Shown in pieces: positions 6,684-47,229 of a stretch of 48,254 nt of DNA (the stretch's first letter is position 1; each line of letters begins with the position of its first letter). The position numbers were made by a program, and so were the translations under genes. Under the pieces are notes generated by a model that did not search any database, had not been told where the DNA came from, and saw only the letters and a program-made list of their open reading frames with translations. Source of the stretch: Desulfovibrionales bacterium. GTDB taxonomy: Bacteria > Desulfobacterota > QYQD01. The stretch spans positions 1 to 48,254 of the forward strand of contig JAQURM010000013.1 in the NCBI GenBank assembly GCA_028715605.1, in the 5' to 3' direction.

Positions 6684-7958
6684 ATGGCCAAATTTAAAAC
6701 TCCGTTGATAGATGAACTCGAAAAGGGGCCGTGGCCGAGTTTTGTTTCGGACATAAAGCGCCAGGCCAAGACAAAACCCGAGTTGGAGGACCTTCTCGGT
6801 CAGCTTGAACTCTCGTACAAGGACAAGGAAACCCACTGGAAGCACGGCGGTATCGTGGGTGTATTCGGTTATGGTGGGGGCGTCATCGGCAGATACTCCG
6901 ACATGCCCAAGGAATTCCCGGGGATTGCGCATTTTCACACTGTCCGCGTCAACCAGACCGGCGGTTTTTACTACAATACGAAGTACTTGGGGCAGCTTAT
7001 GGACATGTGGGAACGCCGCGGCAGTGGTTTGACGAACTTCCATGGTTCCACCGGTGATATGGTGCTTCTGGGGACACAGACTGATCAATTGGAAGAGATC
7101 TTCTGGGAATTGACCCACGATATGAATACTGATCTGGGCGGCTCAGGCGGAAACCTGCGCACCCCTTCCTGTTGCCTGGGGATGTCTCGCTGCGAGTATG
7201 CCTGTATTGATTCACAAGCCATTTGCCAGGAAATGACCATGGCCTATCAGGATGAGCTGCACCGACCGGCCTTCCCATATAAATTCAAGATCAAGGTATC
7301 GGGATGCCCGAATGACTGCGTGGCAGCCATTGCCCGTTCCGATTGTGCGATTATCGGTACCTGGAAAGACAATATACGCATTGATCAGTCCACAGTTGCC
7401 GCCTATGTAAACGGCGAACTGAAACCGAATGCCGGTGCTCATGCGGGCCGCGACTGGGGTAAGTTTGACATCGTAAAAGAGGTGATTAATCTCTGCCCGA
7501 CGAAATGTATGAGCTGGGATGGCAAGGAACTCAAGATCAATAACAAAGAGTGTACACGTTGTATGCACTGCATCAACGTCATGCCGCGGGCCCTTCGTCC
7601 AGGCGTGGACAAAGGTGCGACCCTCCTCTGCGGAGCAAAGGCGCCCATTCTCGAGGGGCAGAGACTGGCCACTGTGATTGTTCCTTTTATCAAGACGGAA
7701 GGGACCTTTGAGGAAATCAAAGAAGTTATTAACAAGTTGCTGGATTGGTGGATGGAGCACGGCAAGAACCGTGAGCGCATCGGCGAGCTTATCGGCCGTA
7801 TGGGTATGCGGGAAATGCTGAAGGCGACGGGTCTGCCACCTGTTCCGCAGATGGTCAAAGAACCGCGGTCGAATCCGTACATCTTCTGGGAAGAGTCAGA
7901 TGTGCCCGGCGGCTGGACGCGGGATCTCGCCGCATTCAGAAAGAAACACCCGCTATGA
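6684..7958 (+). CDS. dsrA: Dissimilatory sulfite reductase subunit alpha
   Basis: Catalytic subunit of DsrAB, which reduces sulfite with electrons delivered at a siroheme-[4Fe-4S] centre in the cytoplasm and hands the product to DsrC. The 424-residue length is typical. The siroheme-cluster ligands are visible as Cys164-x5-Cys170 (CLGMSRC) and Cys208-x3-Cys212 (CPNDC). The inserted ferredoxin domain follows, with CPTKC and CTRCMHC. It starts with ATG behind AAGGAGG and is followed 45 nt later by dsrB. The presence of dsrD suggests the reductive type of Dsr rather than the oxidative type of sulfur oxidisers. dsrC and dsrMKJOP are not in this window. Confidence 0.97.
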   Translation: MAKFKTPLIDELEKGPWPSFVSDIKRQAKTKPELEDLLGQLELSYKDKETHWKHGGIVGVFGYGGGVIGRYSDMPKEFPGIAHFHTVRVNQTGGFYYNTKYLGQLMDMWERRGSGLTNFHGSTGDMVLLGTQTDQLEEIFWELTHDMNTDLGGSGGNLRTPSCCLGMSRCEYACIDSQAICQEMTMAYQDELHRPAFPYKFKIKVSGCPNDCVAAIARSDCAIIGTWKDNIRIDQSTVAAYVNGELKPNAGAHAGRDWGKFDIVKEVINLCPTKCMSWDGKELKINNKECTRCMHCINVMPRALRPGVDKGATLLCGAKAPILEGQRLATVIVPFIKTEGTFEEIKEVINKLLDWWMEHGKNRERIGELIGRMGMREMLKATGLPPVPQMVKEPRSNPYIFWEESDVPGGWTRDLAAFRKKHPL

Positions 7959-8003
7959 TGATCAGAGAATATATATATAACTAAATTAGGAGGTCAGAGA
8001 ATT

Positions 8004-9104
8004 ATGGGTTATGATCCTAAAAATCCTATGAAAGACAGGATAACAGATATCGGCCCGCGGAGTTACGAAGAGTTTATGCCGCCGGTGATAAAGAAGAACT
8101 TTGGCAAGTGGCTGTATCATGAGATACTCGAGCCCGGGGTCTTGATGCACAAGGCCGAGAGTGGCGACGAGGTCTATACGGTAAGAGTAGGCGCCGCCCG
8201 ACTCATGAGTATCGAATTGATACGCGATGCCCTCAAGATCGCCGACAAGCACTGCGATGGTTGCCTCCGCTGGACCACGCGTAACAATATCGAGTTTATG
8301 GTCGATAACAAATCCAAACTGGAACCGTTGAAGGCTGATCTGAAGGCCAACCCGATGTTCCCGATCGGCGGCACGGGCGCGGGTGTGACGAACATCGTCC
8401 ACACCCAGGGCTGGGTGCATTGCCATACTCCGGCTATCGATGCCTCAGGTATCGTCAAGTCGGTGATGGATGATCTCTTCAAACACTTCCAGTCCATGGA
8501 TCTGCCGGCCCAGGTACGCATCGCCCTGGCTTGCTGCTTAAATATGTGTGGCGCGGTCCACTGCTCGGATATCGCCATCCTAGGGTTCCACCGCAAACCG
8601 CCCTTTGTGCAGCATGAGGTTATCAGCCAGATCTGCGAACTTCCTCTCGCGATTGCGGCCTGCCCCACCGGCGCTATCAAGCCGGCTACGGTAGATGGCA
8701 AGAAGAGCGTGAGTGTTAACGGGGAACGCTGTATGTTCTGCGGCAACTGCTACACCATGTGCCCGGCCATGCCGCTAATGGATGCCGAGGGTGACTGCGT
8801 AGTTATTATGATGGGTGGAAAGATCTCCAACCGCATCAGCGCCCCGAAGTTCTCCAAGGTAGTTATCCCTGCCCTGCCGAGCAATCCGCCGCGGTGGCCG
8901 GAAGTCGTGGCCGCGGTCAGAAATATCCTGGAGACCTACGCCAAAAACGCCAACAAGTATGAGCGGATTGGCGAGTGGGCTGAAAGGATTGGATGGGAAA
9001 GAGTATTCGAGAAATGCAACATACCCTTCAACGTAAAGACCATCGATGATTATACCCTGGCTTATAATACCCTAAGGACAACAACGCAGTTTAAGTTCTC
9101 TTAA
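8004..9104 (+). CDS. dsrB: Dissimilatory sulfite reductase subunit beta
   Basis: Partner of DsrA in the A2B2 enzyme; it carries the functional siroheme in structurally known DsrAB. The 366 residues include the cluster motif region [11 protein letters not shown] and CPTG, and the ferredoxin insert [22 protein letters not shown] precedes the ATG by about 10 nt. It is co-transcribed with dsrA (45 nt gap) and dsrD (38 nt gap). Confidence 0.97.
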
Positions 9105-21243: not shown

Positions 21244-21478
21244 CTTTTTGGGGTATTTCCCCCGTTATGGGGTACAATGCCCCACAGGGAAGAAACGCCC
21301 GCGGATGTGTTGTTCCGGGTATATCTAAAATAATCATTAATATCAGTCCGTTGATTTATTAAAGAGTGTTTCCTGTACCAGTTTATCTATGGCATGGAAG
21401 TTGCTGAAAAATAATGAGTTCTTATTAAGATTAGGCCCTGAGTTCTGTAAAAAATGGAAGCCAGAGGGTTGTTAGCCG

Positions 21479-22183
21479 GTGCCCGAGCCTAGATATAGCT
21501 ATATCGCCCTTTGCTCCAGGGATGAAAATTGTACCAACCAGGTACATGAAGTTACAACTGCCTTCCAGGAGAAGTTCAAAGAGCTGGGTGTTAAGGTAAG
21601 CATCCGTAAGATCAAGACCGTATGCAGCGGTCGTTGTAATAAGGGTGTCTTTGTGGATATTGGCGGGGCTGTGTTTTACCACATGGTAAGACTTGATAAT
21701 GTGGAATCCGTTATACGGGATACCATATTGGAAGGAGATGTGCTTTCAGCCCATTATTCGATTGAACGCTCGTTTGTAAGCGATGAAAAGGTTATATACG
21801 ATAGGCCTGCCAATGTGCTGATTTATACAGATTCTCAATTTTGTTTGGCGGAAGGATTGCGGGGCTTGTTACGCAAGGATGGTCTTTCCTCTTGCGGTAA
21901 ATGTGTCCCCTGTCGTCTGGGTGTCAAGAAATTAGACCAGATATTATCAGCTTTGCTGGACGGGAAGGCGCGAGTGGATGATGTGGATAGATTGCGGGAA
22001 TTAGCGGTGGTTATGGATGCCAGTTCCCGATGCGCCTTGGCGGGTAAGTTCGTGGCGCCTCTCTTTGTGGCCATGGACAATTTCGGTGAGGAGCTGAATT
22101 TTGTCTGCGTCTTGAGCGAAGATGCAAGTTGTGTCTGTGAGTTGAAAGATTCCGGCGGGCGGTGTTTGACCGGGAGTGCTTGA
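21479..22183 (+). CDS. Thioredoxin-like [2Fe-2S] ferredoxin fused to NuoF-type [4Fe-4S] domain
   Basis: A 234-residue protein of two electron-transfer modules. Residues 1-105 resemble thioredoxin-fold [2Fe-2S] ferredoxins, with Cys12, Cys18, Cys49 and Cys53. Residues 110-200 resemble the iron-sulfur domain at the end of NuoF/HydB/HndC proteins: SSCGKCVPCRLG (Cys139, 142, 145) and Cys185 in CALA. The FMN- and NAD-binding domains that separate these in NuoF-type subunits are absent, so it cannot act as a diaphorase alone and may wire another flavoprotein to the C1 enzymes. It starts with GTG and lies 35 nt before fhs, so co-transcription is likely. No family with this exact layout is known to me. 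Confidence 0.75.
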   Translation: MPEPRYSYIALCSRDENCTNQVHEVTTAFQEKFKELGVKVSIRKIKTVCSGRCNKGVFVDIGGAVFYHMVRLDNVESVIRDTILEGDVLSAHYSIERSFVSDEKVIYDRPANVLIYTDSQFCLAEGLRGLLRKDGLSSCGKCVPCRLGVKKLDQILSALLDGKARVDDVDRLRELAVVMDASSRCALAGKFVAPLFVAMDNFGEELNFVCVLSEDASCVCELKDSGGRCLTGSA

Positions 22184-22218: not shown

Positions 22219-23982
22219 ATGGCGCTTGACCCAAGAAAGCATAAGGATTGGCAGATTGCTGAAGATGCAGAGAAACACATGAAAGACGTCTATCAACTGG
22301 CTGATGAATTGGGCCTGAAAAAGGAAGAGCTGTTGCCATACGGGCATTATGTGGCCAAAATCGATTTTGCCAAGGTTACGGAACGGTTGAAGAAAAGGCC
22401 GGATGCAAAATATATCGATGTCACGGCTATCACGCCGACTCCGTTGGGCGAAGGCAAAAGCACGTCGGCTATGGGCCTGGTGGAGGGGCTGGGTAAGAGG
22501 AAAAAACGCGTAATCGGTGCGATCCGGCAGCCCTCCGGCGGGCCGACTATGAATATCAAGGGTAGCGCGGCGGGCGGAGGTCTGGCGCAGTGCATTCCGC
22601 TTACGCCGTTCTCACTGGGGCTGACCGGAGACATCAATGCCATCATGAATGCTCATAATCTGGCCATGGTAGCCCTTACCTCGCGCATGCAGCATGAATT
22701 CAACTATTCCGACGACCGTTTGAAGAAGATAGGTTTGAAAAGGCTCGATATCGATCCCAAGAATGTGGCCATGGGCTGGATTATGGACTTTTGCGCCCAG
22801 GCCCTGCGAAATATCATAATCGGAATCGGCGGGAAGATGGACGGGTTTCAGATGCAATCGAAGTTCGCTATTGCCGTAAGCTCCGAGGTCATGGCCATCT
22901 TGGCCGTATCCACAAGCCTGGCTGATATGCGCGAGCGCATGGGGCGGATTGTAGTGGCATACAGCCGGAGCGGGCAGCCGGTCACGACAAAAGATCTGGA
23001 AGTGGACGGGGCCATGACGGCGTGGATGGTTGAGGCCATGAATCCAAACCTGATGCAGAGCCTGGAAGGGCAGCCGGTTCTGGTTCATGCTGGTCCGTTT
23101 GCCAACATTGCTATCGGGCAATCTTCTATCGTGGCAGACCGGGTTGGGCTTAAACTGGCTGACTATCATGTTACCGAGAGCGGCTTTGGCGCCGACATAG
23201 GGTTCGAAAAATTCTGGAATCTGAAGTGCCGCTTTAGCGGCCTAAAGCCCCACTGCGCTGTGGTCGTGGCTACCATACGGGCTCTGAAGTGTCACGGCGG
23301 CGCTCCCATCCCGGTTCCGGGCCGCCCCATGCCTGCTGAGTACGCAAGCGAAAACGTGGGATGGGTGGAAAAAGGTACGGCAAATCTTATACACCACATC
23401 CAGACGGTAAAGAAGGCCGGGATTAATCCCGTGGTCTGTATCAATGCCTTCCATACAGATACCAAAAATGAAATCGCCGCGGTGCGCCGGCTGGCCGAGG
23501 CCGCCGGGGCTCGCGTAGCCCTGTCCAATCACTGGCTGAAAGGCGGTGAAGGAGCCCTTGAATTTGCCGATGCAGTAATCGATGCCTGTGAGGAAAAGAC
23601 CAAATTCAAGTTTCTTTATGATCTAAAAACGCCGTTGGCCAAACGCGTAGAGCTTATTGCTAGGGAGGTCTATGGGGCCGATGGCGTCAGCTTTGCCCCG
23701 GAGGCGGCGGCCAAGCTCCAGGCCATGGAAAAGGATCCTGAGATGGCTGAGCTTGGGACGTGCATGGTCAAGACCCACTTGAGTCTGTCCCACGATCCGA
23801 ATATAAAGGGTGTGCCTAAGAGTTGGACTTTGCCGGTTAGGGATATATTGGTTTATAAGGGCGCGGGGTTTGTCGTTCCGGTAGCCGGCGCTATAAGCCT
23901 CATGCCGGGGACAGGTTCGGATCCGGCCTATCGCCGTATAGATGTGGATGTCAAGACCGGTAAGGTTAAGGGACTATTTTAA
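22219..23982 (+). CDS. fhs: Formate--tetrahydrofolate ligase
   Basis: ATP-dependent activation of formate to 10-formyl-THF, an early methyl-branch step of the Wood-Ljungdahl pathway (run in reverse during acetate oxidation). The 587-residue length is typical. Recognised motifs include the P-loop [35 protein letters not shown], the [15 protein letters not shown] stretch and the C-terminal [15 protein letters not shown]. The start is ATG after AGGAAGG. It is followed by a heptad array and folD. Confidence 0.97.
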
Positions 23983-23989
23983 GAATAAG

Positions 23990-24060
23990 CGTTCAGCTTA
24001 CAGCTATCAGCTTTCAGTAAAGAATGATGGATGACTGCTGACCGCTGATTGCCGATTGCT
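23990..24060. repeat. Heptad array with complementary arms (TCAGCNN type)
   Basis: The left arm TTCAGCTTACAGCTATCAGC has 7-nt spacing, and the right arm CTGCTGACCGCTGATTGCCG is complementary in sense. It separates fhs and folD within the operon. A short single copy (TCAGCT/AGCTGA hairpin) also lies at 24981-25002 after folD. Confidence 0.7.
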
Positions 24061-24076
24061 TTATAAGGAGAAGAAG

Positions 24077-24964
24077 ATGGCAGCGAAGATTATTAGCGGA
24101 ACAGAGATTGCCAAGCAGATCCGGGCGGAGTTAAAGGAGGAAGTGGCCAATCTCAGGGCAAAACATGATATCATACCCGGCCTGGCCACCGTTCTGGTCG
24201 GGGATAATCCGGCCTCAAAGGTCTATGTGGGTCAGAAGGAGAAGGCATGTGCGGAGCTGGGCATCTATTCAGAGAGGATTGATCTGCCGGGGGATACATC
24301 CGAGACCGATCTCCTGACCTTGATTGACAAGTTGAACCATGACCCAAAGATTAACGGAATACTGGTACAATTGCCACTGCCTAAGCATATTAATGAAACT
24401 AAGGTCCTTTATGCCATTGACCCGGCTAAGGATGTCGATGGTTTCCACCCGGTAAATGTCGGCAAACTTATGATCGGAACCAAATGTTTTCTGCCCTGCA
24501 CGCCCCATGGTATCCAGGAACTGCTCATCCGTTCCGGCGTAGAGACAGCCGGGGCCGAAGTAGTGGTTGTGGGGCGAAGCAATATCGTCGGCAAGCCGAT
24601 TGCCAACATGCTCATTCAGAAAGGGAAAGGCGCAGATGCCACGGTTACGGTCTGTCATACCCGTACCAAAGATATGGCCTTTCATACCCGGAGGGCGGAT
24701 ATCCTCATCGTGGCCGCCGGCCGTCCTAAGACCGTAACGGCGGACATGGTCAAAGAAGGTGTGGTGGTGATAGATGTCGGCGTGAATCGTATAGGGCAGA
24801 CAGCGGAGGGTAAGGCCATCCTGGCGGGTGATGTTGATTTTGACGGCGTAAAAGAAAAGGCTTCAGCGATTACGCCCGTGCCGGGCGGTGTGGGTCCGAT
24901 GACTATTACCATGCTTATGCAGAATACAGTCGAGGCCGCCAAAGAACAGGGCCGCGTAGCGTAG
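24077..24964 (+). CDS. folD: Bifunctional methylene-THF dehydrogenase/methenyl-THF cyclohydrolase
   Basis: Interconverts 10-formyl-THF and methylene-THF with NAD(P), the middle of the methyl branch. The 295-residue protein has the family signatures: KVYVGQKEKACAELGI with catalytic Lys, GILVQLPLP, DVDGFHPVN, the Rossmann motif VVVGRSNIVGKP, CHTRTKD and the C-terminal TPVPGGVGPMT. ATG 24077 is chosen because AAGGAG lies 6 nt upstream; an in-frame TTG at 24056 falls within the repeat array. No separate fchA is seen, so FolD covers both reactions. Confidence 0.97.
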   Translation: MAAKIISGTEIAKQIRAELKEEVANLRAKHDIIPGLATVLVGDNPASKVYVGQKEKACAELGIYSERIDLPGDTSETDLLTLIDKLNHDPKINGILVQLPLPKHINETKVLYAIDPAKDVDGFHPVNVGKLMIGTKCFLPCTPHGIQELLIRSGVETAGAEVVVVGRSNIVGKPIANMLIQKGKGADATVTVCHTRTKDMAFHTRRADILIVAAGRPKTVTADMVKEGVVVIDVGVNRIGQTAEGKAILAGDVDFDGVKEKASAITPVPGGVGPMTITMLMQNTVEAAKEQGRVA

Positions 24965-25042: not shown

Positions 25043-25072
25043 GTTATTTTTTCAATTTGTGGAGGAATGAGC

Positions 25073-27025
25073 ATGGAAAGGAAGAGAATGGCCTTTTGCC
25101 CTTCGATTTGCCCGGGCATCGAATGTGAGGCCAGCAATCAGGTCCTTGAATTTGCTAACCAGAAAGGGGTTAAAACCTTTGTTCAGCGGGTAGAAGGAAG
25201 AGGTTTAGACCGCTGTCAGTTTGGAGCAGGAGGCACTTGTTGTCGCAACTGTTCTATGGGGCCTTGTATGATGATTGAAGGTGTCCCGGAGTCCATAGGC
25301 ATCTGCGGGGCCACGCCGGCAACGACTGCGGCCCGGAACTTCTGCCGCATGATAGCCTCCGGTGCGGCGGCCCACATTGACCATGGCCGGGAAACAGTCA
25401 TGGGCTTCCTGGCGTCCGTCCGAGGCGAGGCTCCGTACACCATAAAGGACGAGAGGAAACTCCTTTCCACGGCTCAACTCTTCGAGATCAGAACTGAGGG
25501 GCGGAGCATAAAGGATATCGCTATCGATCTCGGTGAAAAAGCTTTGGCGGAGTTCGGTAAGCAGGAGGGAGGGCTGCGCTTCATAAAACGCGCTCCCGCC
25601 AAGCGACGGGAACTCTGGAAAAAGCTGGGTGTCCTGCCACGGGGGATAGACCGTGAGGTCGTTGAAATAATGCACCGTACCCATATGGGAACCGACCAGG
25701 ATTTTGCCAACCTCATCCTGCAGGGGACGCGGTGCGCCTTGGCCGACGGCTGGGGCGCCTCCATGATTTCCACCGAATTGCAAGACATTATGTTCGGCAC
25801 GCCCGTGCCCATCAGGGCTACCGTTAATCTCGGTGTTTTGAAAGAAGATCAGGTCAACGTCGTAGTACACGGTCACGAGCCGCTCCTTTCTGAGGCCCTG
25901 GCCATGGTGTCTGAGGAGCCGGAAATCTTGGCAGCCGCCCAGGCGGTGGGAGCCAAAGGAGTGCAGCTGTCAGGGGTGTGTTGCACAGGTAACGAAATTC
26001 TCATGCGCCACGGCATACCCATAGCAGGTAGCTTCATCCAGCAGGAGATAGTCCTGGCTACCGGTGCTGTTGAAGCCATGATAGTGGATATCCAGTGCAT
26101 CATGCAGTCTCTCCCGACCGTGGCCCAGTGCTACCACACCGAGATTATTACTACCTCCCCGAGGGCAAAGATACCTGGGGCTACGCACATCGAGTTCGGC
26201 CATCACGATGCCCTGGAAACAGCCAGGAAAATTATAAAACGTGCTATCGCTCGTTACCCGCAAAGGGGTCAGGTAAATATCCCGCAGCGCAAGACGGACG
26301 TCGTGGCCGGTTTCAGCCACGAGACGATTAACCACATGTTGGGCGGCTCTTTCCGGGCCTCCTATCGGCCGTTGAACGACAACATAATTAACGGACGCAT
26401 TCGCGGTGTGGGCGCTGTGGTCGGCTGTGACAGCGCCCGTGTCCGCTCCGGATATGTGCATACCACGGTAGTGAAGGAACTGATTGCCAACAATGTGCTC
26501 GTACTGGTGACCGGGTGCGCGGCTACGGCATGCGGGCGTGAAGGACTCCTTACCCCGGAGGCGGCCAGCCTTTGCGGACCGGGGCTGAAAGAGGTCTGCG
26601 AGGCGGTCGGTATGCCCCCCGTACTCCATATGGGATCCTGCGTTGACAACAGCCGCATCCTTATCGCAGCTACGGAGATTGTAAACGAAGGCGGTTTGGG
26701 AGACGATATCAGCCAGATTCCCGCCGTAGGCTGTGCTCCGGAATGGATGAGCGAAAAGGCCATAGCCATCGGCCAGTACTGCGTAACCAGCGGTGCGAAC
26801 GTTGTCTTCGGTCACACCTTCCCGACTACCAAGAGTCAGGTCATGACGGATTACCTTTTCAAAGAGATGCTCAATTTGTACGGCGGGTGTTGGGGGGTCG
26901 AAGACACACCGGAGGAAATGGCGCGATGGATGATAAAGGCCATCGACAGCAGGCGCGAGGCCCTCGGTATCCACCAGAAGAAGGAACGGGTACTCTTTGA
27001 CATGGCCATGCGCAGAGAATTATAG
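25073..27025 (+). CDS. cooS: Carbon monoxide dehydrogenase catalytic subunit
   Basis: Ni-Fe CODH that interconverts CO and CO2; here probably the carbonyl-branch enzyme working with the acetyl-CoA synthase genes that begin at the right edge. The 650-residue product has the N-terminal cluster cysteines (RCQFGAGGTCCRNC then MGPC), HGHEP, GVCCTGNE, DIQCIMQSLP, VTGCAATACGR and MGSCVDNSR, which supply ligands to the B, C and D clusters. ATG 25073 lies 7 nt after GGAGG; an upstream ATG at 25067 is too close. It directly precedes the selenocysteine HdrA gene (63 nt), suggesting that electrons from CO oxidation could enter the Hdr modules. Confidence 0.96.
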   Translation: MERKRMAFCPSICPGIECEASNQVLEFANQKGVKTFVQRVEGRGLDRCQFGAGGTCCRNCSMGPCMMIEGVPESIGICGATPATTAARNFCRMIASGAAAHIDHGRETVMGFLASVRGEAPYTIKDERKLLSTAQLFEIRTEGRSIKDIAIDLGEKALAEFGKQEGGLRFIKRAPAKRRELWKKLGVLPRGIDREVVEIMHRTHMGTDQDFANLILQGTRCALADGWGASMISTELQDIMFGTPVPIRATVNLGVLKEDQVNVVVHGHEPLLSEALAMVSEEPEILAAAQAVGAKGVQLSGVCCTGNEILMRHGIPIAGSFIQQEIVLATGAVEAMIVDIQCIMQSLPTVAQCYHTEIITTSPRAKIPGATHIEFGHHDALETARKIIKRAIARYPQRGQVNIPQRKTDVVAGFSHETINHMLGGSFRASYRPLNDNIINGRIRGVGAVVGCDSARVRSGYVHTTVVKELIANNVLVLVTGCAATACGREGLLTPEAASLCGPGLKEVCEAVGMPPVLHMGSCVDNSRILIAATEIVNEGGLGDDISQIPAVGCAPEWMSEKAIAIGQYCVTSGANVVFGHTFPTTKSQVMTDYLFKEMLNLYGGCWGVEDTPEEMARWMIKAIDSRREALGIHQKKERVLFDMAMRREL

Positions 27026-27088: not shown

Positions 27089-30000
27089 ATGGGTAGAGAA
27101 CAAGGTGCCAAGTCGGGTGCAGTAGTGGTAATCGGGGGCGGTGTGACTGGCGTCCAGTCTGCCCTTGACCTTGCCGGCATGGGTTTCTATGTCTATCTGG
27201 TGGAGAAGACAGGTTCGATCGGCGGGGCCATGGCCCGTCTCGACAAGACCTTTCCAACCAATGACTGTTCCCTTTGAATCCTGGCGCCGAAGTTGGTGGA
27301 GGCCGGTCGGTCTCCTAACATAAAGATTCTTACAAATGCCGGTCTTGAGTCGTTGGAGGGAGAGGCGGGGAATTTTACCGCCCGAATACATCGTGAGCCT
27401 CGGTTTATCGACGAGGACCTGTGTACGGCCTGCGGTCAGTGCACTATGTATTGTCCGGTCTTTGTGACGGACGGGTACAACGAGGGACTGGCTATCACAA
27501 AGGCTCCGCACAAGGACTACGCGCAGGCGGTGCCCGCAGCGTTTTACATTGACCCGAAGAAATGTCTCTTCTTGAATCATGAGACGTGTCAGATTTGCGT
27601 CCCGACGTGTCAGGCCAAGGCCATCGACTTCAGTCAGAAAGAAGAATGGCTGGATCTTAATGTGGGAGCAGTGATACTTGCTCCCGGGTTTGGGCGGATC
27701 TCCGACGAGGTCCTTTCGAAGTATGGTTACGGACGCTTTCCGGATGTCGTGACCAGTCTTGAATTCGAGAGGATTATGTGTGCCTCCGGGCCTTCGAAAG
27801 GAGAGATAATAAGGCCGTCCGATGGCAAGCACCCCAAGAAGATCGCTTTCCTCCAGTGCATCGGATCGAGAGACCTTACCTCCGGGAACGGGTATTGCTC
27901 TTCCGTCTGCTGTATGTACTCCATCAAGGAGGCCACGATAGTCAAGGAGCACGCACCCGATACGGATATTTGCCTGTTCTACATGGACATGCGTACCCCG
28001 GGCAAAGGTTTCGACGCCAGTCGGCAACGGGCACGGGAACAATACGGCCTTACATTCATACGGAGCAGAGTAGCTGGTATTTCGGAGATAGACGACCGCC
28101 TCAGACTTTCGTACGTAGATCGCCGGGGACACCACCATGAAGAGGACTTCGACATGGTTGTCCTGTCGGTTGGCCTCGAGTCTCCCGACGATGCGCAGAA
28201 GCTGGCCAAGGTTGCCGGCATCAAGCTGAATGAACACGATTTTTGCCGTACCCAGACGCTGCTGCCCCTTAGCACGACGCGGCCGGGAGTATATGTAGCC
28301 GGTGCTTTTCAAGGACCGAAGGATATTCCTGAAAGCGTTATGCAGGCTATGGGCACGGCTGCGGCCGCGGCGGAGGTGTTGCGCGAAGTCCGTGGTACGG
28401 CCATCGTGAAAAAGGAGTATCCTCCGGAAATGGAGGTGGCGCCGGAGCCGCGGATCGGCGTTCTCGTCTGTCACTGTGGAATCAACATCGGCGGGGTGGT
28501 GAACGTTCCCGAAGTGGTTGAGTATGCGGCTACGCTCGACAACGTGGTATCGGCCGACGGGAGCCTCTACGCCTGTTCCCAGGACAGCCAGAAGGGCATT
28601 AAGGATATGATCGAAAAGCACAACCTTAACCGGGTGGTGGTGGCTGCCTGTACCCCGCGCACCCATGAACCTTCATTCCAGGAGGCGTTGAGAGACGCCG
28701 GACTGAACCGTTGCCTCTTCGAGATGGTCAACATAAGGGACCAGTGCTCATGGGTGCATGCCCATGAGCCGGCAGAGGCTACGGCCAAGGCCAAGGATCT
28801 GATGCGGATGGCTGTGGCCAAGGCGCGGTTGCTGTATCCGCTCCCGGAACAGACCGTACCCGTGATCCCGAAGGCCCTGGTAATCGGCGGGGGCATTGCA
28901 GGTATGACCGCGGCGCTCAGCATTGCCGAGCAAGGGTTCGACTGTTTCCTGGTGGAGAAGTCGGCCCAGTTGGGCGGTAATCTGAGGCGGCTGAATACCG
29001 TTCTGACCGGTGAAGATCCGAAACAGCTTCTGAGCGAAATCGAAGACAAAGTGCGAAGTCATCCCCGGATCAGGGTTTATACGAGCGCCGGTATTGAGGA
29101 CATCTCCGGATACATCGGCAACTTCAGCACCACGATCAACGTCGAGGACGGCACGGAGCAGATAGGGCATGGCGTGGTGGTCCTGGCTACGGGTGGCAAG
29201 GAGCATCAGGTCAGCAAGTACCTGTATGGACAGTCAAAACAGGTACTGACTCAGCTGGAGCTGGAAAAAATTCTGTCGTCGCCTGAAGAGGCCACAAAGA
29301 TCCATGACGTGGTCATGATTCAGTGCGCCGGATCAAGGGGTGACGACCTGTCCTATTGCAGTAAGCTCTGTTGCGGTCAGGCGGTCAAAAACTCCCTGAA
29401 GCTCAAGGAATTGAATCCCAAAGCCAATGTTTACGTCCTCTATCGGGACATCCGGACCTACGGCTTCATGGAGGACTACTATCGCCAGGCCAGGGAAAAG
29501 GGAGTCGTGTTCGTAGAATACGAGAGCTCAAATCCACCCGTGGTATCAGAGGAAGGGGGAAGAGTCGCCGTAGAATTTACTGACATCCTGCTGGGAGAAA
29601 AGGTGAAGATAGAGCCGAGCCTGGTCGTTCTGAGCGTGGGTGTTGTTCCCTCGGATGTGGAAGGGTTGGCGAAAATGCTCAAGGTTCCCTTGACCGCGGA
29701 CAACTTTTTTCTGGAGGCCCACGTCAAACTGCGTCCGGTTGAACTGGCAGTAGCCGGGGTATATGTCTGTGGGTTGGCCCATTCACCGAAGCCCGTTGAT
29801 GAGTCCATCAGCCAGGCGAAGGCGGCCTCGGCAAAGGCCTGTATTCCGCTGGCTAAGGGAGTGGTTGCCGTAGAACCGATCGTGTCCAGCGTAGATAAAG
29901 ACAAGTGCATCGGGTGCGGCATATGTGAGAGCCTCTGTCCATTCAAAGCCATACGGCTCGTGAAGGCGGACAAGAAGAAAAAGGCGGAGACCATTGCCGC

Positions 30001-30118
30001 GTCGTGCAAGGGATGCGGTATATGTGCCTCCCATTGTCCGACCATGGCCATCTCCATGGGCGGCTTCACAAACGAAGAGATAGTAGCCCAGATACGGGCA
30101 TTTGGCGGTAGTCATTAG
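27089..30118 (+). CDS. hdrA: Selenocysteine-containing HdrA, two-module form (Sec63)
   Basis: Flavin and iron-sulfur hub of heterodisulfide-reductase-type complexes, where electron bifurcation takes place. The frame is continuous through an in-frame TGA (27275-27277), giving 1,009 residues. Order: FAD motif [15 protein letters not shown] (about 14), [12 protein letters not shown]-Sec63, ferredoxin cysteines CTACGQC, a cysteine group QCIGSRD to CSSVCCMY, then a second HdrA unit beginning [10 protein letters not shown] (about 460), FAD motif [13 protein letters not shown] (about 595), QCAGSRG to CSKLCCGQ, and two C-terminal [4Fe-4S] sets (from about 939). The two paralogous HdrAs in this block have Cys where the TGA stands (NDCSTC, NDCSMC), and coding similarity runs unbroken on both sides. 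A SECIS-like hairpin follows. TGA is an ordinary stop elsewhere, for example at the end of dsrA. Confidence 0.93.
27298..27315 (+). promoter_or_regulatory. SECIS-like hairpin of hdrA (Sec63)
   Basis: A 7-bp stem, GGAGGCC with GGTCTCC (one G-T pair), with apical loop GGTC. The loop begins 28 nt after the TGA, inside the range of bacterial SECIS elements, and the GGU loop resembles that of E. coli fdhF. Confidence 0.7.
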
Positions 30119-30263: not shown

Positions 30264-30275
30264 GGAGTGAGCGAA

Positions 30276-31037
30276 ATGACCAATGACAAATTTAAACCAA
30301 AGATACTCGGCTTTCTCTGCAACTGGTGTTGCTACGCTGCGGCCGATTCGGCCGGGGTGGGGCGGTATCAGTACCCAACGAATCTGCGTACCATCAGGAT
30401 CATGTGCACCGGCCGGCTTGACCCCACGTTCGTTCTGGAGGGTTTTGCCTGCGGAGCGGACGGGATATTCGTCGGCGGTTGACACCTGGGTGAATGCCAT
30501 TACCAGGTTGGTAATTACGACGCCGTACTGACAGCCGAATTGGTTCATGCCATTCTTGAGGAGGTGGGGGTCAAGCCCGAGCGTTTTGCCCTTGACTGGG
30601 TCTCGGCTGCCGAGGCCCCGCGATTCGTGGACCTCATTACTGCCTTCACTAGAAAGATAGAAGGCCTGGGACCCATGGGCCAGGTTGAGGGAAAGGAACG
30701 GGAGGAACTTTTGGTGAAACTCGCTGCCGCCAGACAGGCTGCGGGGATCATGAAGGTGCGGGCCGGCCTCGGCAATCTGGCCAAGGACTTCCGGAAGGAA
30801 GGCGACTATGGGCTTGACGTGGTGAAACGGAAGATCGACGAAAAGCTCGGTCTCATGGTGAAGTCCGAGGTGGGGGGCCAGGAGATATTGCTCAGGTTGG
30901 AGCGACAGGGTCCGCTGAGCACGGCCGATCTCGCCGGCCGGGTGGGGTGGTCGCCTGAGGAGATCGGGGAGTACCTGGGCAAACTGGGGAAGAAAGGGCA
31001 AGTCTCGGAGAAGGATGGACGCTGGACGTTGGCCTAA
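30276..31037 (+). CDS. mvhD: Selenocysteine-containing MvhD with C-terminal extension (Sec69)
   Basis: MvhD is the [2Fe-2S] subunit that passes electrons to HdrA. Residues 1-130 are a full MvhD domain: [38 protein letters not shown]-Sec69-HLGECHY. An in-frame TGA (30480-30482) stands where the Cys-form paralogue has GGCEIGSCHF. After the MvhD domain comes an unusual stretch of about 120 residues: a charged helical segment, then a predicted winged helix ([19 protein letters not shown] to the end). The total is 253 residues against about 140 for ordinary MvhD. ATG 30276 lies 8 nt after GGAG; an upstream ATG at 30252 is within the repeat. A SECIS-like hairpin follows the TGA. Confidence 0.92.
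30499..30515 (+). promoter_or_regulatory. SECIS-like hairpin of mvhD (Sec69)
   Basis: A perfect 7-bp stem, ATTACCA with TGGTAAT, with loop GGT. The loop begins 24 nt after the TGA. The top of the hairpin, CCAGGTTGG, is close to the E. coli fdhF SECIS apex. Confidence 0.75.
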
Positions 31038-31057
31038 GGAAAGAAACGTGACAGGTG

Positions 31058-31660
31058 ATGACATTGGGAACAAGCTTGGCACTTATACGTAGGGAAGATC
31101 TGGATCCGGACTTCAAGTTCGTACTGGCCGATATGCCGGGTGCGGAAGACATCAGGCGCTGTTTTGCCTGCGGCACGTGCACGGGCATCTGCCCCGTGAG
31201 CAGGGACAACCCCCTGTACGACCCGCGAAAGATCATACACATGGTCATTCTGGGTCTCAAAGACAGGCTTCTTTCTTCAGAAATGATCTGGCACTGCACA
31301 CGGTGTGACACCTGCCGGTTTGCCTGCCCGCAGGGAGTGCGGATGAGTACCGTAATCAGTGCCCTGCGCCAGATGGCGGTTCAAGGGGAATACGTTGATC
31401 TTCCGACTCTGCAGGGCTGGGGCAAGGTGGCCAGAGTGAAAGCGGGACGCTGCGTGGGGTGCTTGACCTGCGCCCGCGTCTGTCTGTTCGAGGCCATCTA
31501 CCGGGGAAAGAATAAGAGGGCCTTTGTTCAGGTTGATCCGCTGAAGTGTCGCGCTTGCGGGCTCTGTACGGTGGAATGCCCGCGAGGGGCAATTGTTGTG
31601 GGCAGAGGAGATGCGAACAATGCCATGGGAAGAGACGAGGCCGGGGCAGCCGGCATCTGA
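31058..31660 (+). CDS. hdrC: HdrC-like iron-sulfur protein with four [4Fe-4S] motifs
   Basis: A soluble electron carrier of 200 residues. The first part is HdrC-like, with CFACGTCTGICP and CTRCDTCRFACP separated by the DPRKIIHMVILG helix. A second ferredoxin domain is appended (CVGCLTCARVC and CRACGLCTVECP), so four clusters are expected where HdrC normally has two. ATG 31058 is used; a GTG immediately before it is also possible. It lies between the Sec-MvhD and the first metV, consistent with an electron wire from HdrA-MvhD to the methylene-THF reductase, which would replace HdrB. Confidence 0.88.
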   Translation: MTLGTSLALIRREDLDPDFKFVLADMPGAEDIRRCFACGTCTGICPVSRDNPLYDPRKIIHMVILGLKDRLLSSEMIWHCTRCDTCRFACPQGVRMSTVISALRQMAVQGEYVDLPTLQGWGKVARVKAGRCVGCLTCARVCLFEAIYRGKNKRAFVQVDPLKCRACGLCTVECPRGAIVVGRGDANNAMGRDEAGAAGI

Positions 31661-31776
31661 CCTCTCATACAGAGGGACCCAAGTTCCAGGCACCCGAACA
31701 GGCAAGGAACGAGCGAGGAGCCCGCGGGGCACTTAGTTGATGTGTATAGACCGAAGGTATTGTGGGGTGATTAGCC

Positions 31777-32472
31777 GTGATCGTTGCGACAAGAAAACCG
31801 TTTGACGCTATCAAACAAATTGTTTCCGGACACAAGAAGGTCTTGATTGTGGGTTGCGGTACGTGTGTTGCCGTATGCCTGGCCGGAGGCGAGAAAGAGG
31901 TCTCCATCCTGGCTTCTCAGATTCGCATGGCCTTGAAGCTGGACGGGCAGAGGGTGCAGGTGGACGAAGCCACTGTCGAGAGACAATGTGACCGGGAATT
32001 CCTGGTTGACCTTGGTAAGAGAGTCAACGTGTCCGACTATGACATGGTGATCTCCATGGCATGTGGGGCGGGGGTCCAACTGTTCAGCGATGTCTATGAC
32101 CGCAGCACGGTAGCTCCGGGATTGGACACGGTTTTTATCGGAGTGGCCGAGGGACCCGGCGTATGGACGGAACGGTGCCGGTCCTGCGGGGACTGCGTGC
32201 TGGGTAGGACGGCGGGCATCTGTCCGGTAACTATGTGTGCCAAGGGCCTCCTGAACGGCCCCTGTGGCGGGACGCGGCACGGAAAATGTGAGATCAACCC
32301 GGAGATGGATTGCGCCTGGGCCAAGATATATGAGCGTCTGGCGGTGCGTGGGGGCCTGGCACAGATACGCGAGACACTTCCACCCCGCAAGAACAGCAGA
32401 CAGGCATTTCCTGCGGTATTGATCCACGAAGCCTACAAACGGAGACTAAAGAAAGATGACACGATCGTTTAG
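31777..32472 (+). CDS. metV: MetV, zinc/iron-sulfur partner of methylene-THF reductase (copy 1)
   Basis: A 231-residue protein of the MetV (MTHFR C-terminal-like) family, which joins MetF and carries metal clusters. It shows the N-terminal GCGTCVAVCLAGG, a middle VERQCD, ISMACGAGVQ, and the C-terminal cysteine cluster CRSCGDCVLGRTAGICP followed by CAKGLLNGPCGG, GKCE and CAW. The start is GTG after GTGGGGTGA. The 3' end overlaps metF copy 1 by 17 nt, indicating tight co-expression. The C-terminal tail (PPRKNSRQAFPAVLIHEA) is longer than in copies 2 and 3. The 31661-31776 gap before it holds nothing notable. Confidence 0.92.
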   Translation: MIVATRKPFDAIKQIVSGHKKVLIVGCGTCVAVCLAGGEKEVSILASQIRMALKLDGQRVQVDEATVERQCDREFLVDLGKRVNVSDYDMVISMACGAGVQLFSDVYDRSTVAPGLDTVFIGVAEGPGVWTERCRSCGDCVLGRTAGICPVTMCAKGLLNGPCGGTRHGKCEINPEMDCAWAKIYERLAVRGGLAQIRETLPPRKNSRQAFPAVLIHEAYKRRLKKDDTIV

Positions 32473-33328
32473 AGAAGCCCTCGATTCAGGAAGATTCTTG
32501 GTGACTGTGGAAATCGCCCCTCCAAAAGGTACGGACGTAGGCATGGTGATGTCGGCCATCAAGGATGTGAAGGACGTCGTTGATGCAGTTGGTGTGGCGG
32601 ACAACCCGGGGGCGGTCATGACCATGAGCCCATGGGCCCTCTGCCGGGTGCTCGCGGAGAGCGGCGGGGAACCGATCATGCACGTCAGTTGCCGTGACCG
32701 AAACCGTATGGCCTTACAATCCGACCTGTTAGGGGCGGCTTTTTTAAAGATAAGAAATATTCTCTGTATAAGCGGCGATCACGTTTCTTTTGGCGACCAT
32801 ACCGATGCCATGCCGGTCCATGATATCGACTCTGTTCAACTTGTCGAGGCCATTCGCGGTCTCGTACAGGGCCAGGATATGACCGGACATCCGCTCCAGG
32901 GCATGCCTGAATTTTGCGTGGGGGCCGTGGCCAATCCGGAAGCCGATCCTCTGCAGCCGCAGCTTTTCAAGTTCCAAAAGAAGATCCAGTCTGGAGTTGA
33001 CTTTGTGGTGACCCATCCGGTGTTCAATGTTGACAATCTCAAACCCTTCTTGAAGGAGGCGAGAGAAAAAAAGGTCAAGTTGCTGGCGGGTGTTCGCCTC
33101 CTGGTGTCTGACGAGGTCCCGGCGTACCGGGACGGCAGTCGCCCGGGGTTGTTTGTTCCGGAGAATATCCTTGCCGAGATTGAAGGGTCAGGTATAGACA
33201 AGGGAGTGGAAGTTGCGGTCCGGCTCATCAAGAGCATGAAGGAAAAGAACTTATGTGACGGGGTACACATTTCGGCCCCCGGTCATGAGGAAAAGATCAT
33301 CGACATCATCAAGGCGGCGGGCATTTGA
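32456..33328 (+). CDS. metF: Methylene-tetrahydrofolate reductase MetF (copy 1)
   Basis: A 290-residue TIM-barrel flavoprotein that reduces methylene-THF to methyl-THF. It has the catalytic Glu in VTVEIAPPKG, DRNRMALQSDLLGA, ISGDH and VANPEADP, and the flavin/folate pocket residues FVVTHPVFN. It lacks an NADH-binding domain, as do all MetFs of this type, so the electron donor is set by its partners. It overlaps metV upstream. Confidence 0.93.
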   Translation: MTRSFREALDSGRFLVTVEIAPPKGTDVGMVMSAIKDVKDVVDAVGVADNPGAVMTMSPWALCRVLAESGGEPIMHVSCRDRNRMALQSDLLGAAFLKIRNILCISGDHVSFGDHTDAMPVHDIDSVQLVEAIRGLVQGQDMTGHPLQGMPEFCVGAVANPEADPLQPQLFKFQKKIQSGVDFVVTHPVFNVDNLKPFLKEAREKKVKLLAGVRLLVSDEVPAYRDGSRPGLFVPENILAEIEGSGIDKGVEVAVRLIKSMKEKNLCDGVHISAPGHEEKIIDIIKAAGI

Positions 33329-33345
33329 CCGCACGGGATGGACAC

Positions 33346-33903
33346 ATGGAAAACGCGATGCGCATAGAGCCCACGTGGCTGGCGACGGTGGAAAGTGAGA
33401 GCGGGGTCAAGGTCTCCGCGTGCTACCAGTGCAAAAAGTGCACGGTCGGCTGTCCCCTGACTTTCGCTATGGACATCTACCCCGATCAGGTGATTCGTCT
33501 GGTTCAGATGGGACAGCGGGAGCGGGTTCTCGCGTGCAACACGGTCTGGGTCTGTTCGGGTTGTGAGACGTGCACCACCCGTTGTCCGAACGCGGTAGAT
33601 GTGGCCGGAATAATGGACTACCTCAAGGAAACGGCGATCCGGAGCGGAATGGAGATTCCGCAGCCCAAGACATACGTCTTTCACAGGGCGTTTTTGAACG
33701 AGATAAGGAGACGGGGCCGGGTATTCGAAGCCGGTCTCGTGGGAACCTACCTGAGGGAGAGCGGGGAGCTGAAGGCCAAACTGGAAGACAAAACCCTCGG
33801 CGAAGAACTCGCCCTCGGTTGGGCCATGTTCAAGAAGGGCCGCATGCGCCTCTTCCCCAAGGGTATCAAGGGCAAGACAGAGATCAGGGAAATCTTGAAA
33901 TAG
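33346..33903 (+). CDS. hdrC: HdrC iron-sulfur subunit
   Basis: A 185-residue HdrC with two [4Fe-4S] motifs, CYQCKKCTVGCP and CSGCETCTTRCP, in the usual positions. The C-terminal half is helical and basic (GWAMFKKGRMRLFPKGIKG), typical of HdrC. ATG 33346 is chosen with GGGATGG upstream; a TTG at 33325 overlapping the metF stop is an alternative. It is followed 9 nt later by hdrB, forming the conventional hdrCBA-mvhD order with the next genes. Confidence 0.93.
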   Translation: MENAMRIEPTWLATVESESGVKVSACYQCKKCTVGCPLTFAMDIYPDQVIRLVQMGQRERVLACNTVWVCSGCETCTTRCPNAVDVAGIMDYLKETAIRSGMEIPQPKTYVFHRAFLNEIRRRGRVFEAGLVGTYLRESGELKAKLEDKTLGEELALGWAMFKKGRMRLFPKGIKGKTEIREILK

Positions 33904-33912
33904 TAGGCACCT

Positions 33913-34743
33913 ATGGAAAAAGTCAGTTATTACCCCGGTTGCTCGTTGGAAGGAACGGCCAGAGACTACAGCGAATCGATCCACGCTGTCTGCCAGGAAT
34001 TGGGAATCGGTCTGGATGAGCTGGCGGACTGGAGCTGTTGCGGCGCCAGCTCCGCCCACAGCATCGACCATAGGGCTTCTATCGGCCTTCCACGCAGGAA
34101 CCTGGTTATAGCCGGCCGCGCGGGTCGTGATCTGGTGGTGCCCTGTCCCCTTTGCTACAATCGGCTCAAGGCTGCCGAAAAGGATGCCGCTTCCGGTGAA
34201 CGGCGCGTCAGGATATGGGACCTGGCCAACTATATGGGGCGCGAAGAAGTACTGAATATAATCAAAGGAAAGGTAACGAGGCCGCTTGCCGGGATAAGAG
34301 CCGTTTGTTACTACGGGTGTATGTCCAGCCGTCCGCCTAAAATTACGGACGCCGACGACTGCGAAAACCCGATGAGCATGGACCGTATTCTGGCGTGCCT
34401 AGGCGCCGAGGTAGTTCCCTGGTCGTACAAGACGGACTGCTGTGGAGCGAGCCACGCCATTCCCAGGCAGTACCTGGTTTTCGAACTGGTCGGGAGACTG
34501 TACCAGCGGGCCGTGGCGGCCGGGGCCAACTGTATCGCCGTGTCCTGCCAGATGTGCCAGGCCAATCTGGATATGTATCAGGACAAAATAAACCAGTCCA
34601 TGAGAACCGATTACTACTTGCCCGTCCTGTATTTTACGGAACTCATGGGTCTGGCCATGGGACATAGGGATGTCAGTACCTGGTTTTCCCGCCACTTTGT
34701 GGATCCTACGGCCCTTTTGACGCAGGCGGGGCTTGCGCCTTAA
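33913..34743 (+). CDS. hdrB: HdrB, CCG-domain subunit
   Basis: A 276-residue protein with two CCG domains: the first with WSCCGASS and PCPLCYNRL, the second with TDCCGASH and SCQMCQANL. In methanogens each domain holds a non-cubane [4Fe-4S] cluster that cleaves a heterodisulfide. In bacteria without coenzyme M the real disulfide or electron acceptor is unknown. It is the only HdrB among three HdrA copies in the block, so the other two HdrA modules must use another outlet. Confidence 0.94.
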   Translation: MEKVSYYPGCSLEGTARDYSESIHAVCQELGIGLDELADWSCCGASSAHSIDHRASIGLPRRNLVIAGRAGRDLVVPCPLCYNRLKAAEKDAASGERRVRIWDLANYMGREEVLNIIKGKVTRPLAGIRAVCYYGCMSSRPPKITDADDCENPMSMDRILACLGAEVVPWSYKTDCCGASHAIPRQYLVFELVGRLYQRAVAAGANCIAVSCQMCQANLDMYQDKINQSMRTDYYLPVLYFTELMGLAMGHRDVSTWFSRHFVDPTALLTQAGLAP

Positions 34744-42351: not shown

Positions 42352-43020
42352 ATGATTGTTGGCGAACAGAAGCCATTTGCTGAAATTGTCGAGATGCTGA
42401 AGGGGTTCCAAAAGATCCTGGTTCTTGGGTGTGGCACCTGCGTAACGGTGTGTTTTGCCGGCGGCGCCAAAGAGGTGGAGATCCTTTCGTCGCTGATTCG
42501 CATGGACCGCAAGAAAAAAGGGGAACCCGTTGAGATCGTGGAGAAGACCCTCGTCCGGCAGTGTGATCCGGAGTATCTTCAGGAGCTTTCCGGGTCCATA
42601 GGCGAGTATGACGCGGTGCTGTCCATGGCCTGCGGCGTAGGCGTCAATTTCCTGGCAGATACCTATGCGAACACCGTTTTCCTCCCCGCACTAAACACCA
42701 AATTCATGGGAGTCACGGAGGAACACGGCGTCTGGTCCGAGCGCTGTGCCGGCTGCGGCCAGTGCATTCTGGACATGACCGGCGGACTGTGTCCCATAGC
42801 CCGGTGTTCCAAAGGCCTCTTCAACGGCCCCTGCGGCGGCTCGGTCAATGGGAAATGCGAGATAAGCAAGGACGTGGACTGCGTATGGCAGCTGATATAT
42901 GACCGCCTGAAGGGTCTCAATCGACTGGACAAGCTTGACGAGATTTTCCCCATAAAGGATTGGTCGGCGAGTCCCCACGGTGGTCCGCGGAAGATTGTGA
43001 GAGAGGATCTGAAAGTATGA
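42352..43020 (+). CDS. metV: MetV (copy 2)
   Basis: A 222-residue MetV: LGCGTCVTVCFAGG, VRQCD, LSMACGVGVN, then CAGCGQCILDMTGGLCP, CSKGLFNGPCGG, GKCE and CVW. ATG is 3 nt after the Sec16 mvhD stop, and the stop overlaps the metF2 start (ATGA). With hdrA copy 3 and the Sec16 MvhD it forms a compact five-gene unit. Confidence 0.93.
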   Translation: MIVGEQKPFAEIVEMLKGFQKILVLGCGTCVTVCFAGGAKEVEILSSLIRMDRKKKGEPVEIVEKTLVRQCDPEYLQELSGSIGEYDAVLSMACGVGVNFLADTYANTVFLPALNTKFMGVTEEHGVWSERCAGCGQCILDMTGGLCPIARCSKGLFNGPCGGSVNGKCEISKDVDCVWQLIYDRLKGLNRLDKLDEIFPIKDWSASPHGGPRKIVREDLKV

Positions 43021-43934
43021 AATCGGGAAGCAGTCTGGAGAGAATACTGGAAAGCGGGCAGTTCGCCGTAACCTCGGAGTGCGGGCCACCCAAGGGAACT
43101 TCGGGCCAGGTGGTCAAGCGCAAAGGGGAACTCCTGAAGACCTGCTGTGACGCTTTGAACATAACGGACAACCAGACGGCCATCGTGAGGATGTCCAGCC
43201 TCAGCGGGTGCGTTCTTCTGAGGGAACTGGGTATAGAGCCGGTGATGCAGATGGTGGTGCGCGACCGGAACCGGATCGCCATTCAGAGCGACATTCTGGG
43301 CGCCGTGGCGCTGGGAGTCCGTAATCTGCTTTGTCTATCCGGTGACCACCAGAGATTCGGCAATCATCCGCAGGCGAAGGGGGTCTACGATATTGATTCC
43401 ATTCAGCTCATACAGACGGTCAAAAGGATGCGCGATGAGAAGAAGTTCATGAACGGAGAGGATATCTCGGGCGATATCCCGCTCTATATCGGCGCTGCGG
43501 CCAATCCCTTTGCGGATCCTTTTGAGTTCAGGGTCAGAAGACTGGCCAAGAAGATAAAGGCAGGGGTTGATTTCATCCAGACTCAGGGGATATTTGATGT
43601 GGAGAGGTTCTCCCGCTGGATGGCCATGGCCAGAGACGAGGGCCTGCATGAGAAGGTGCATGTTTTGGCCGGGGTTATTCCCATCAAATCCGTGGGCATG
43701 GCGCGGTACATGGCCAAGAACGTGGCCGGCATCTCCGTACCGAGGGAACTGGTCAGCCGGATGGAAGGGGCCAAGGACGCCAAGGAAGAAGGCCTGAAGA
43801 TAGCCATCGAGATCATTGAGCAGGTCAAGGAGATTGAAGGAGTTCACGGCGTTCATATCATGGCTGTGGCCTGGGAGGATGTCGTGCCGCGCATTGTTGA
43901 GGAGGCAGGGTTGATGCCCAGGCCGATAGTGTAA
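43017..43934 (+). CDS. metF: Methylene-tetrahydrofolate reductase MetF (copy 2)
   Basis: A 305-residue MetF: catalytic Glu in SECGPPKG, NITDNQTA, VRDRNRIAIQSD, LSGDHQRFGNHPQAKGV, ANPFADP, DFIQTQGIFD and GVIPIKSVGMARYM. ATG 43017 overlaps the metV2 stop. The HPQAKGVYDIDS block and QTQ motif are shared with copy 3 but not with copy 1, so copies 2 and 3 are closer to each other. Confidence 0.94.
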   Translation: MKSGSSLERILESGQFAVTSECGPPKGTSGQVVKRKGELLKTCCDALNITDNQTAIVRMSSLSGCVLLRELGIEPVMQMVVRDRNRIAIQSDILGAVALGVRNLLCLSGDHQRFGNHPQAKGVYDIDSIQLIQTVKRMRDEKKFMNGEDISGDIPLYIGAAANPFADPFEFRVRRLAKKIKAGVDFIQTQGIFDVERFSRWMAMARDEGLHEKVHVLAGVIPIKSVGMARYMAKNVAGISVPRELVSRMEGAKDAKEEGLKIAIEIIEQVKEIEGVHGVHIMAVAWEDVVPRIVEEAGLMPRPIV

Positions 43935-44432: not shown

Positions 44433-44512
44433 CCACGAAGTGACAAAGACAACCGACAATTAACCGATGATTAATCCGGATTCATTCGTGGTTAAAACTT
44501 CGACAGCGAGGT

Positions 44513-44902: not shown

Positions 44903-44918
44903 ACATGAAGACGGATTT

Positions 44919-47151: not shown

Positions 47152-47229
47152 AACTGCAAGCTACAGAGATAAACGGCAGATGAAAAACTTTATGCGCTCT
47201 GTGGCTGATATTGAAAAGAGGGTGGCAAA

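Follow-up and report, generated by a model that had tools for sequence, protein, structure and literature searches.

The electron-input subunits HydB, StnB and NfnB (the BfuB family; structures 7p8n_B, 8oh5_B, 9bov_B and 9mqx_B) join a thioredoxin-like [2Fe-2S] domain and a NuoF-type [4Fe-4S] helical bundle in a single chain of ~600 aa that also holds an FMN/NAD domain, an SLBB match and a C-terminal ferredoxin domain. In the StnABC complex only StnB binds StnC, which passes electrons to the B1 cluster of StnB, and the formate dehydrogenase (FDH)-like domain is called inactive (PMC10482914). In complex I the N-module subunits NuoE and NuoF provide the NADH site, and the NuoF C-terminal domain is of the same [4Fe-4S] type. 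For the 11-subunit complex I, PMC11238625 states that the electron donor is still in question and that a search for a common donor protein was unsuccessful. Here we describe a 234-aa protein, encoded from a GTG start at positions 21479–22183 (forward strand) of a 48,254-nucleotide contig from a Desulfovibrionales bacterium (JAQURM010000013.1; hereafter the window), which has the two cluster domains of a HydB-type subunit and no flavin domain between them. We use the working name mini-NuoEF for this two-domain, flavin-free Fe-S protein.

On balance our analyses point, with slightly better than even confidence, to mini-NuoEF being a flavin-free two-cluster electron-relay subunit: kin to an accessory subunit of complex I, re-used in a Wood–Ljungdahl gene cluster, with a fusion of FDH and a GltD-type flavoprotein domain as its best candidate partner.

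A two-cluster protein without a flavin domain

The initial annotation saw in this gene the two electron-carrying ends of a NuoF/HydB-like subunit without the FMN/NAD middle, a description that Pfam, phmmer and eight cysteines all confirm. The Pfam family PF10589 (NADH_4Fe-4S) matches residues 138–206 (E 2.8e-19; 69.2 bits against a cut-off of 23.5), within a helical-bundle [4Fe-4S] domain (residues ~113–212; 21815..22114) that is also delimited by the alignment, an AlphaFold2 model and fold matches. Beyond PF10589 no Pfam family was found on the protein at E≤0.1, be it FMN/NAD (51K), SLBB, NuoE-type thioredoxin or a ferredoxin domain at the C-terminus. The thioredoxin-like [2Fe-2S] domain (residues ~1–92; 21479..21754) is recognized from phmmer, the cysteines and the AlphaFold2 model; its matches to [2Fe-2S] ferredoxin models are weak (E 7e-5 and 3e-3, far under the cut-offs). 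In phmmer searches one and the same HydB/BfuB-type chain matches both ends of mini-NuoEF with its own two ends: in 9mqx_B, for example, these are residues 33–172 and 451–542, and 7t2r_B aligns to the N-terminal domain. Probable ligands are C12, C18, C49 and C53 for the [2Fe-2S] cluster and C139, C142, C145 and C185 for the [4Fe-4S] cluster, and both sites are presumably occupied. Because the test for an FMN/NAD domain came out negative, mini-NuoEF falls by definition outside NuoF/HydB; the NCBIfam NuoF equivalog TIGR01959 gives 47 bits, below the required 558.65.

The AlphaFold2 model, built from a 23-row family alignment (mean pLDDT 76, pTM 0.71), has an order of strands and helices that fits a thioredoxin-like N-terminal domain. 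By Foldseek and VIA-align the two domains both fit chains of HydB, StnB and NfnB, the best matches in fold as well as in sequence, and the [4Fe-4S] domain also fits NuoF of complex I. Structural alignments that span both ends have an rmsd of 14–15 Å; the model therefore places the two domains differently from HydB-type chains. A NuoF-type [4Fe-4S] domain without the FMN domain is found also in a NADH_4Fe-4S/GltD flavoprotein of the same genome (L044, 7308–8846), which we take to be of SfrB type, but there a GltD-type FAD domain replaces the [2Fe-2S] domain.

Conservation within the genus

In what follows G000 is the window genome, G001 to G004 are its congeners and higher numbers denote other sampled genomes. 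Mini-NuoEF is carried by four of the five genus genomes examined, with 97, 94 and 93% identity to the window protein in G001, G003 and G004, respectively. Across the six pairs (228 codons) dN/dS is 0.09–0.14 by NG86 and 0.13–0.22 by YN00: the gene is under purifying selection. Its order is the same in all four carriers (a purH-like gene, mini-NuoEF, fhs, folD, cooS), and it precedes fhs in every one of the four genus genomes that have fhs. The placement just before fhs in a one-carbon (C1) operon, as originally annotated, is thus confirmed, with a gap of 35 bp between the mini-NuoEF stop and fhs. Neither mini-NuoEF nor fhs was found in G002, a genome that is 81% complete; a nuoA–N operon is present there (L121, G002:C83), with no mini-NuoEF after nuoN. 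The other four genus genomes (G000, G001, G003 and G004) have no NuoH match at E≤1e-90. A scan of genome contigs with the mini-NuoEF protein returned two loci, both from congeners. A recent in-frame deletion confined to one genome, named at the outset as the finding that would count against a new adaptor, is ruled out as the origin of the gene by its presence in four genus genomes, by the purifying selection and by the wider family, which adds 19 further genomes with the same layout.

A family at the end of complex I operons

Profile searches over 395 sampled genomes from one phylum identified at least 23 members in 23 genomes, spread over six family codes, and a richer profile returned the same 23. 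This number is a lower bound, with up to 6–7 candidates scored per genome among matches at E≤1e-20 and E≤1e-30. Members score 266–385 bits, and the next matches, which are full-length NuoF-type proteins, score at most 144 bits. The distance between the last [2Fe-2S] cysteine and the first [4Fe-4S] cysteine is 86–87 residues in 23/23 members versus 396–425 in 46 full-length relatives; two more entries with a spacing of 87 in the list of long relatives are long-tailed members of the mini-NuoEF family. Long low-complexity tails occur in three members (G370, G389 and G295). All 23 align across the linker with no more than one gap position each. Seven ligand columns out of eight show no variation across the 23 rows, the second N-terminal cysteine being present at variable spacing; the fourth cysteine of the C-terminal domain was read from its alignment column and not from a pattern search. 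FMN-site motifs occur in none of the 23 members, whereas the commonest of them is found in 45 of 53 long relatives (a set that includes the two long-tailed family members). The breadth of the family, the near-constant spacing, the conserved ligands and the purifying selection bear on the two origins first proposed for the gene, diaphorase remnant or new adaptor: the adaptor is favored, the remnant disfavored.

A group of 1040-aa proteins that appeared to share the uninterrupted layout (contiguous match 57–207) was set aside as an artefact, since inspection by eye showed that these proteins have the long middle region and end in a GltD-like tail. A plasmid search with a mini-NuoEF relative matched 195 records, none to 80% query coverage. 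In the literature searched, which covered few subscription papers and some texts in part, the two-domain protein is described nowhere.

All 19 members outside the window genus are located at the nuoN end of a complex I operon, versus none of the four inside it (nuo labels are from BLAST to references, read by eye). Eighteen stand directly after nuoN; the exception is G142, because nuoE and nuoF-GltD intervene there. Four layouts can be distinguished. In layout A (seven genomes: G186, G161, G333, G351, G210, G315 and G275) the order is nuoE, nuoF, nuoA to nuoN, the family gene and nuoG, and in G351 one small additional open reading frame (ORF) separates the last two. Layout B (eight genomes: G013, G050, G085, G370, G389, G295, G135 and G357) runs from nuoA to nuoN and ends in the family gene, and nuoE, nuoF and nuoG were not seen nearby; the G389 contig breaks off within nuoD, and G135 has a NuoG/GltD-type fusion that begins ~1 kb from nuoA on the opposite strand. 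In layout C (G119, G171 and G091) nuoA to nuoN and the family gene come before an ORF for a fusion protein of 1,171–1,255 aa (start positions uncertain) that combines [2Fe-2S], GltD-type FAD and molybdopterin domains. Layout D (G142) reads nuoN, nuoE, nuoF/GltD, the family gene and nuoG. In contrast to NuoE and NuoF, the family protein lacks an NADH site, and its gene coexists with nuoE and nuoF in layout A and with nuoE and the nuoF/GltD fusion in G142. Layout A operons share HydB-type input genes with the 14-subunit Nuo-Bfu complex I; unlike them, Nuo-Bfu has no extra two-domain subunit in the available portion of its description (PMC9304861).

From this gene context the complex I-operon members are probably an accessory or alternative electron-input subunit. 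Each of the eight nuoA–N operons of layout B has a dedicated two-cluster gene after nuoN, and the donor question of the 11-subunit enzyme is therefore directly testable in those lineages. A broader scenario is tentative, and we hold it with rather less than even confidence: a flavin-free input subunit of complex I in Thermodesulfobacteriota may supply or supplement operons that have no NADH module, and in one lineage complex I may have been lost and the subunit recruited to connect formate dehydrogenase to the Wood–Ljungdahl pathway.

Common descent was assessed with a tree built from only the [4Fe-4S] domain, comprising 73 rows (23 family members and 50 others); left out from the 54 distinct long ORFs were the two long-tailed family members already included and other duplicate or short segments. 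The 23 members fall on one side of a branch and the 50 others on the other, with support of 99/97. The linker length and linker residues shared by the window-genus and complex I members tentatively favor a common ancestor of the two groups.

A formate dehydrogenase fusion as candidate partner

In G001 a single strand carries mini-NuoEF, fhs, folD, cooS, hdrA, hdrC, metVF, hdrBC, two hdrA, two metVF, acsD, acsB, acsC, acsE and, last, the FDH fusion. The shorter one-strand C1 cluster of G004 likewise ends in this fusion, and in G000 and G003 the acs–FDH part is on a separate contig from mini-NuoEF. The fusion is present in all four genus genomes that carry mini-NuoEF, G004 having two copies; none was found in G002 (81% complete). 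It joins a [2Fe-2S] head like that of NuoG to a GltD-type FAD domain and the catalytic domain of an FDH. In G000 it reads as 826 aa, an in-frame TGA and 529 aa, and is probably a selenocysteine (Sec)-containing formate dehydrogenase. Among solved structures NfnABC subunit A (9bov_A) matches it best, starting at the head, and StnC (8oh5_C) matches as well, from residue 2. The window-genus fusion is 45–46% identical to the fusion beside the family gene in G171 and to that near nuoA in G135. Among 148 sampled genomes a head–GltD fusion, scored as a match from residue 7 or earlier in a list read by eye, occurs in 10 of the 11 that carry the family gene versus 11 of the 137 that do not (Fisher p 3.5e-9, which ignores kinship); in the eleventh gene-carrying genome, G085, the fusion is in pieces.

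Fusions of this kind also follow acsE or acsC in other families (L186, L189, L190 and L191), where the gene is split into two open frames in four of four loci; in related full-length loci the break between the frames is one TGA. Judged from these sequences, the FDH/GltD fusion in acs clusters is a recurrent Wood–Ljungdahl type of formate dehydrogenase.

With PF10589 no match of SfrB size was found in G001, G003 or G004, and on that ground the SfrB/FDH locus of G000 (L044) was discarded as a partner. FolD has no Fe-S cluster and is for that reason an unlikely partner.

Proposed function and alternatives

In the reading we favor, mini-NuoEF would be a HydB/StnB-like protein that has kept the thioredoxin-like [2Fe-2S] end and the helical-bundle [4Fe-4S] end, with a short linker of near-constant length between them, and it should act as an electron conduit of the NuoF/HydB kind without the flavin. 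Without an FMN/NAD domain it should not itself react with NAD(P)H. The [4Fe-4S] domain would dock on a NuoG/StnC-type head, for which the probable Sec-FDH/GltD fusion at the end of the cluster is the best candidate, and the [2Fe-2S] domain would pass electrons to or from a low-potential partner, be it HdrA/MvhD, CO dehydrogenase or ferredoxin. The original suggestion that electrons are brought from another flavoprotein fits a GltD-type fusion after the family gene in three complex I operons and its probable Sec-FDH version at the end of the C1 cluster. If the relay reading is true, it would point to a route by which C1 enzymes exchange electrons without using NADH.

Several observations weigh against this reading. 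Window-genus proteins are 21–28% identical to the complex I-linked members, their branch in the [4Fe-4S]-domain tree is very long (~4 changes per column), and the data do not reject a tree in which the other 19 are kept separate from them (p-AU 0.283). The fold model is of moderate quality (pLDDT 76). Beside complex I the family gene is rare, being carried by 7 of 112 genomes with NuoH (E≤1e-90; the 148-genome sample), and a full nuoE and nuoF are also present in the seven layout A operons. The association of fusion and gene across the 148 genomes is uncorrected for kinship. The fusion is located away from the family gene in G013, G050 and G142, and it follows acsE in G032, G129 and G102 and acsC in G145, these last four without mini-NuoEF; the pairing is therefore not obligatory, which makes the fusion a candidate and not a rule.

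Among the alternatives the most substantial, though we rate it as unlikely, is that mini-NuoEF is a dedicated carrier for the HdrA/MvhD–HdrBC–MetVF (methylene-tetrahydrofolate reductase) part of the pathway or for CO dehydrogenase, and not for formate dehydrogenase. The genes for these enzymes are the redox genes closest to mini-NuoEF in all four genomes, three metVF pairs and three hdrA genes are present both in the window and in G001, and in G004 mini-NuoEF is the only PF10589 protein found. A second copy of the FDH fusion in G032 moreover adjoins mvhD and hdrA without mini-NuoEF, and gene units joining NuoEFG, HdrA and MvhD are reported in Desulfotignum (PMC4046663). Yet the usual [2Fe-2S] link to HdrA is already provided by MvhD, and no NuoG-type Fer2_4 head was detected by Pfam in the window HdrA (best 25 of 27 families), MvhD, HdrC, MetV or MetF; CooS was not included in that scan. 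A link from C1 electrons to a complex I-related membrane complex of the genus, by which mini-NuoEF would keep the membrane role of its relatives, is improbable. The relatives do sit in complex I operons, and G000, G001 and G004 encode NuoH- and NuoD-type genes of such a complex, the NuoD-like protein of G000 being without CxxC hydrogenase ligands; but these genes are at a different locus, and none of them was found in the mini-NuoEF carrier G003, whose genome is 90% complete. The G000 gene set (L122 5256–13306; G000:C2) presumably belongs to the Ehr-like type, and its identity as a group-4 hydrogenase was rejected on the lack of CxxC motifs in the NuoD-like protein.

A little less probable still is an independent, degenerate remnant of a HydB/StnB-type subunit with little function. 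Such an origin would be in keeping with the long window branch and the unrejected alternative tree, and with the HydB-type proteins of 643–645 codons in G000 to G003; it is disfavored by purifying selection with all eight cysteines kept, by the linker length and several linker residues common to mini-NuoEF and the complex I members, and by the constant place before fhs. The lowest probability of all falls to a regulatory or assembly role, as redox sensor or cluster chaperone with no electron relay. Mini-NuoEF is the first gene behind a promoter-like site, and what we take to be a kinase and two receivers are encoded within the C1 cluster; against this, both of its domains serve electron transfer in the named relatives.

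The C1 gene cluster of the window

The features listed here from the promoter-like site to position 34743 are on the forward strand. Upstream of mini-NuoEF lies a sigma-54-type −24/−12 promoter-like site, TGGCAT-N5-TTGCT (21390..21405), defined by what we take to be the consensus. It is the single match in the window, with 0.08 expected and at least one match in 7 of 100 shuffles, and it is kept across the four genomes except for one spacer base in G004. Downstream follow fhs, formate–tetrahydrofolate ligase (22219..23982; over the NCBIfam equivalog cut-off), a gene read from its sequence as presumably folD (24056..24964), and the Ni-CO dehydrogenase gene cooS/acsA (25067..27025; TIGR01702, 616.7 bits, cut-off 478).

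The next two genes, hdrA (27089..30118) and mvhD/FlpD (30267..31037, start uncertain), have in-frame TGA codons at positions 63 and 72, respectively, where paralogues in the window carry cysteine; both are probably selenoproteins. No tRNA-Sec was found within the window, to which the search was confined, the rest of the genome being unsearched and no SECIS search having been made. Profile matches place hdrC-like, metV-like, metF, second hdrC-like and hdrB-like genes at 31055..34743, under labels that are in part our assumption. The cluster as a whole holds three metV–metF pairs (31777–33328, 42352–43934 and 46498–48105) together with several hdrA, hdrB and hdrC genes; the G004 cluster has one metVF pair. 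Between metVF copies, at 44019–46388 on the same strand, are genes for what we presume to be two receiver-like proteins and one histidine-kinase-like protein. Outside the cluster, at 6684–9104, two genes read as dsrA and dsrB of dissimilatory sulfite reductase, which suggests sulfur metabolism in the same genome.
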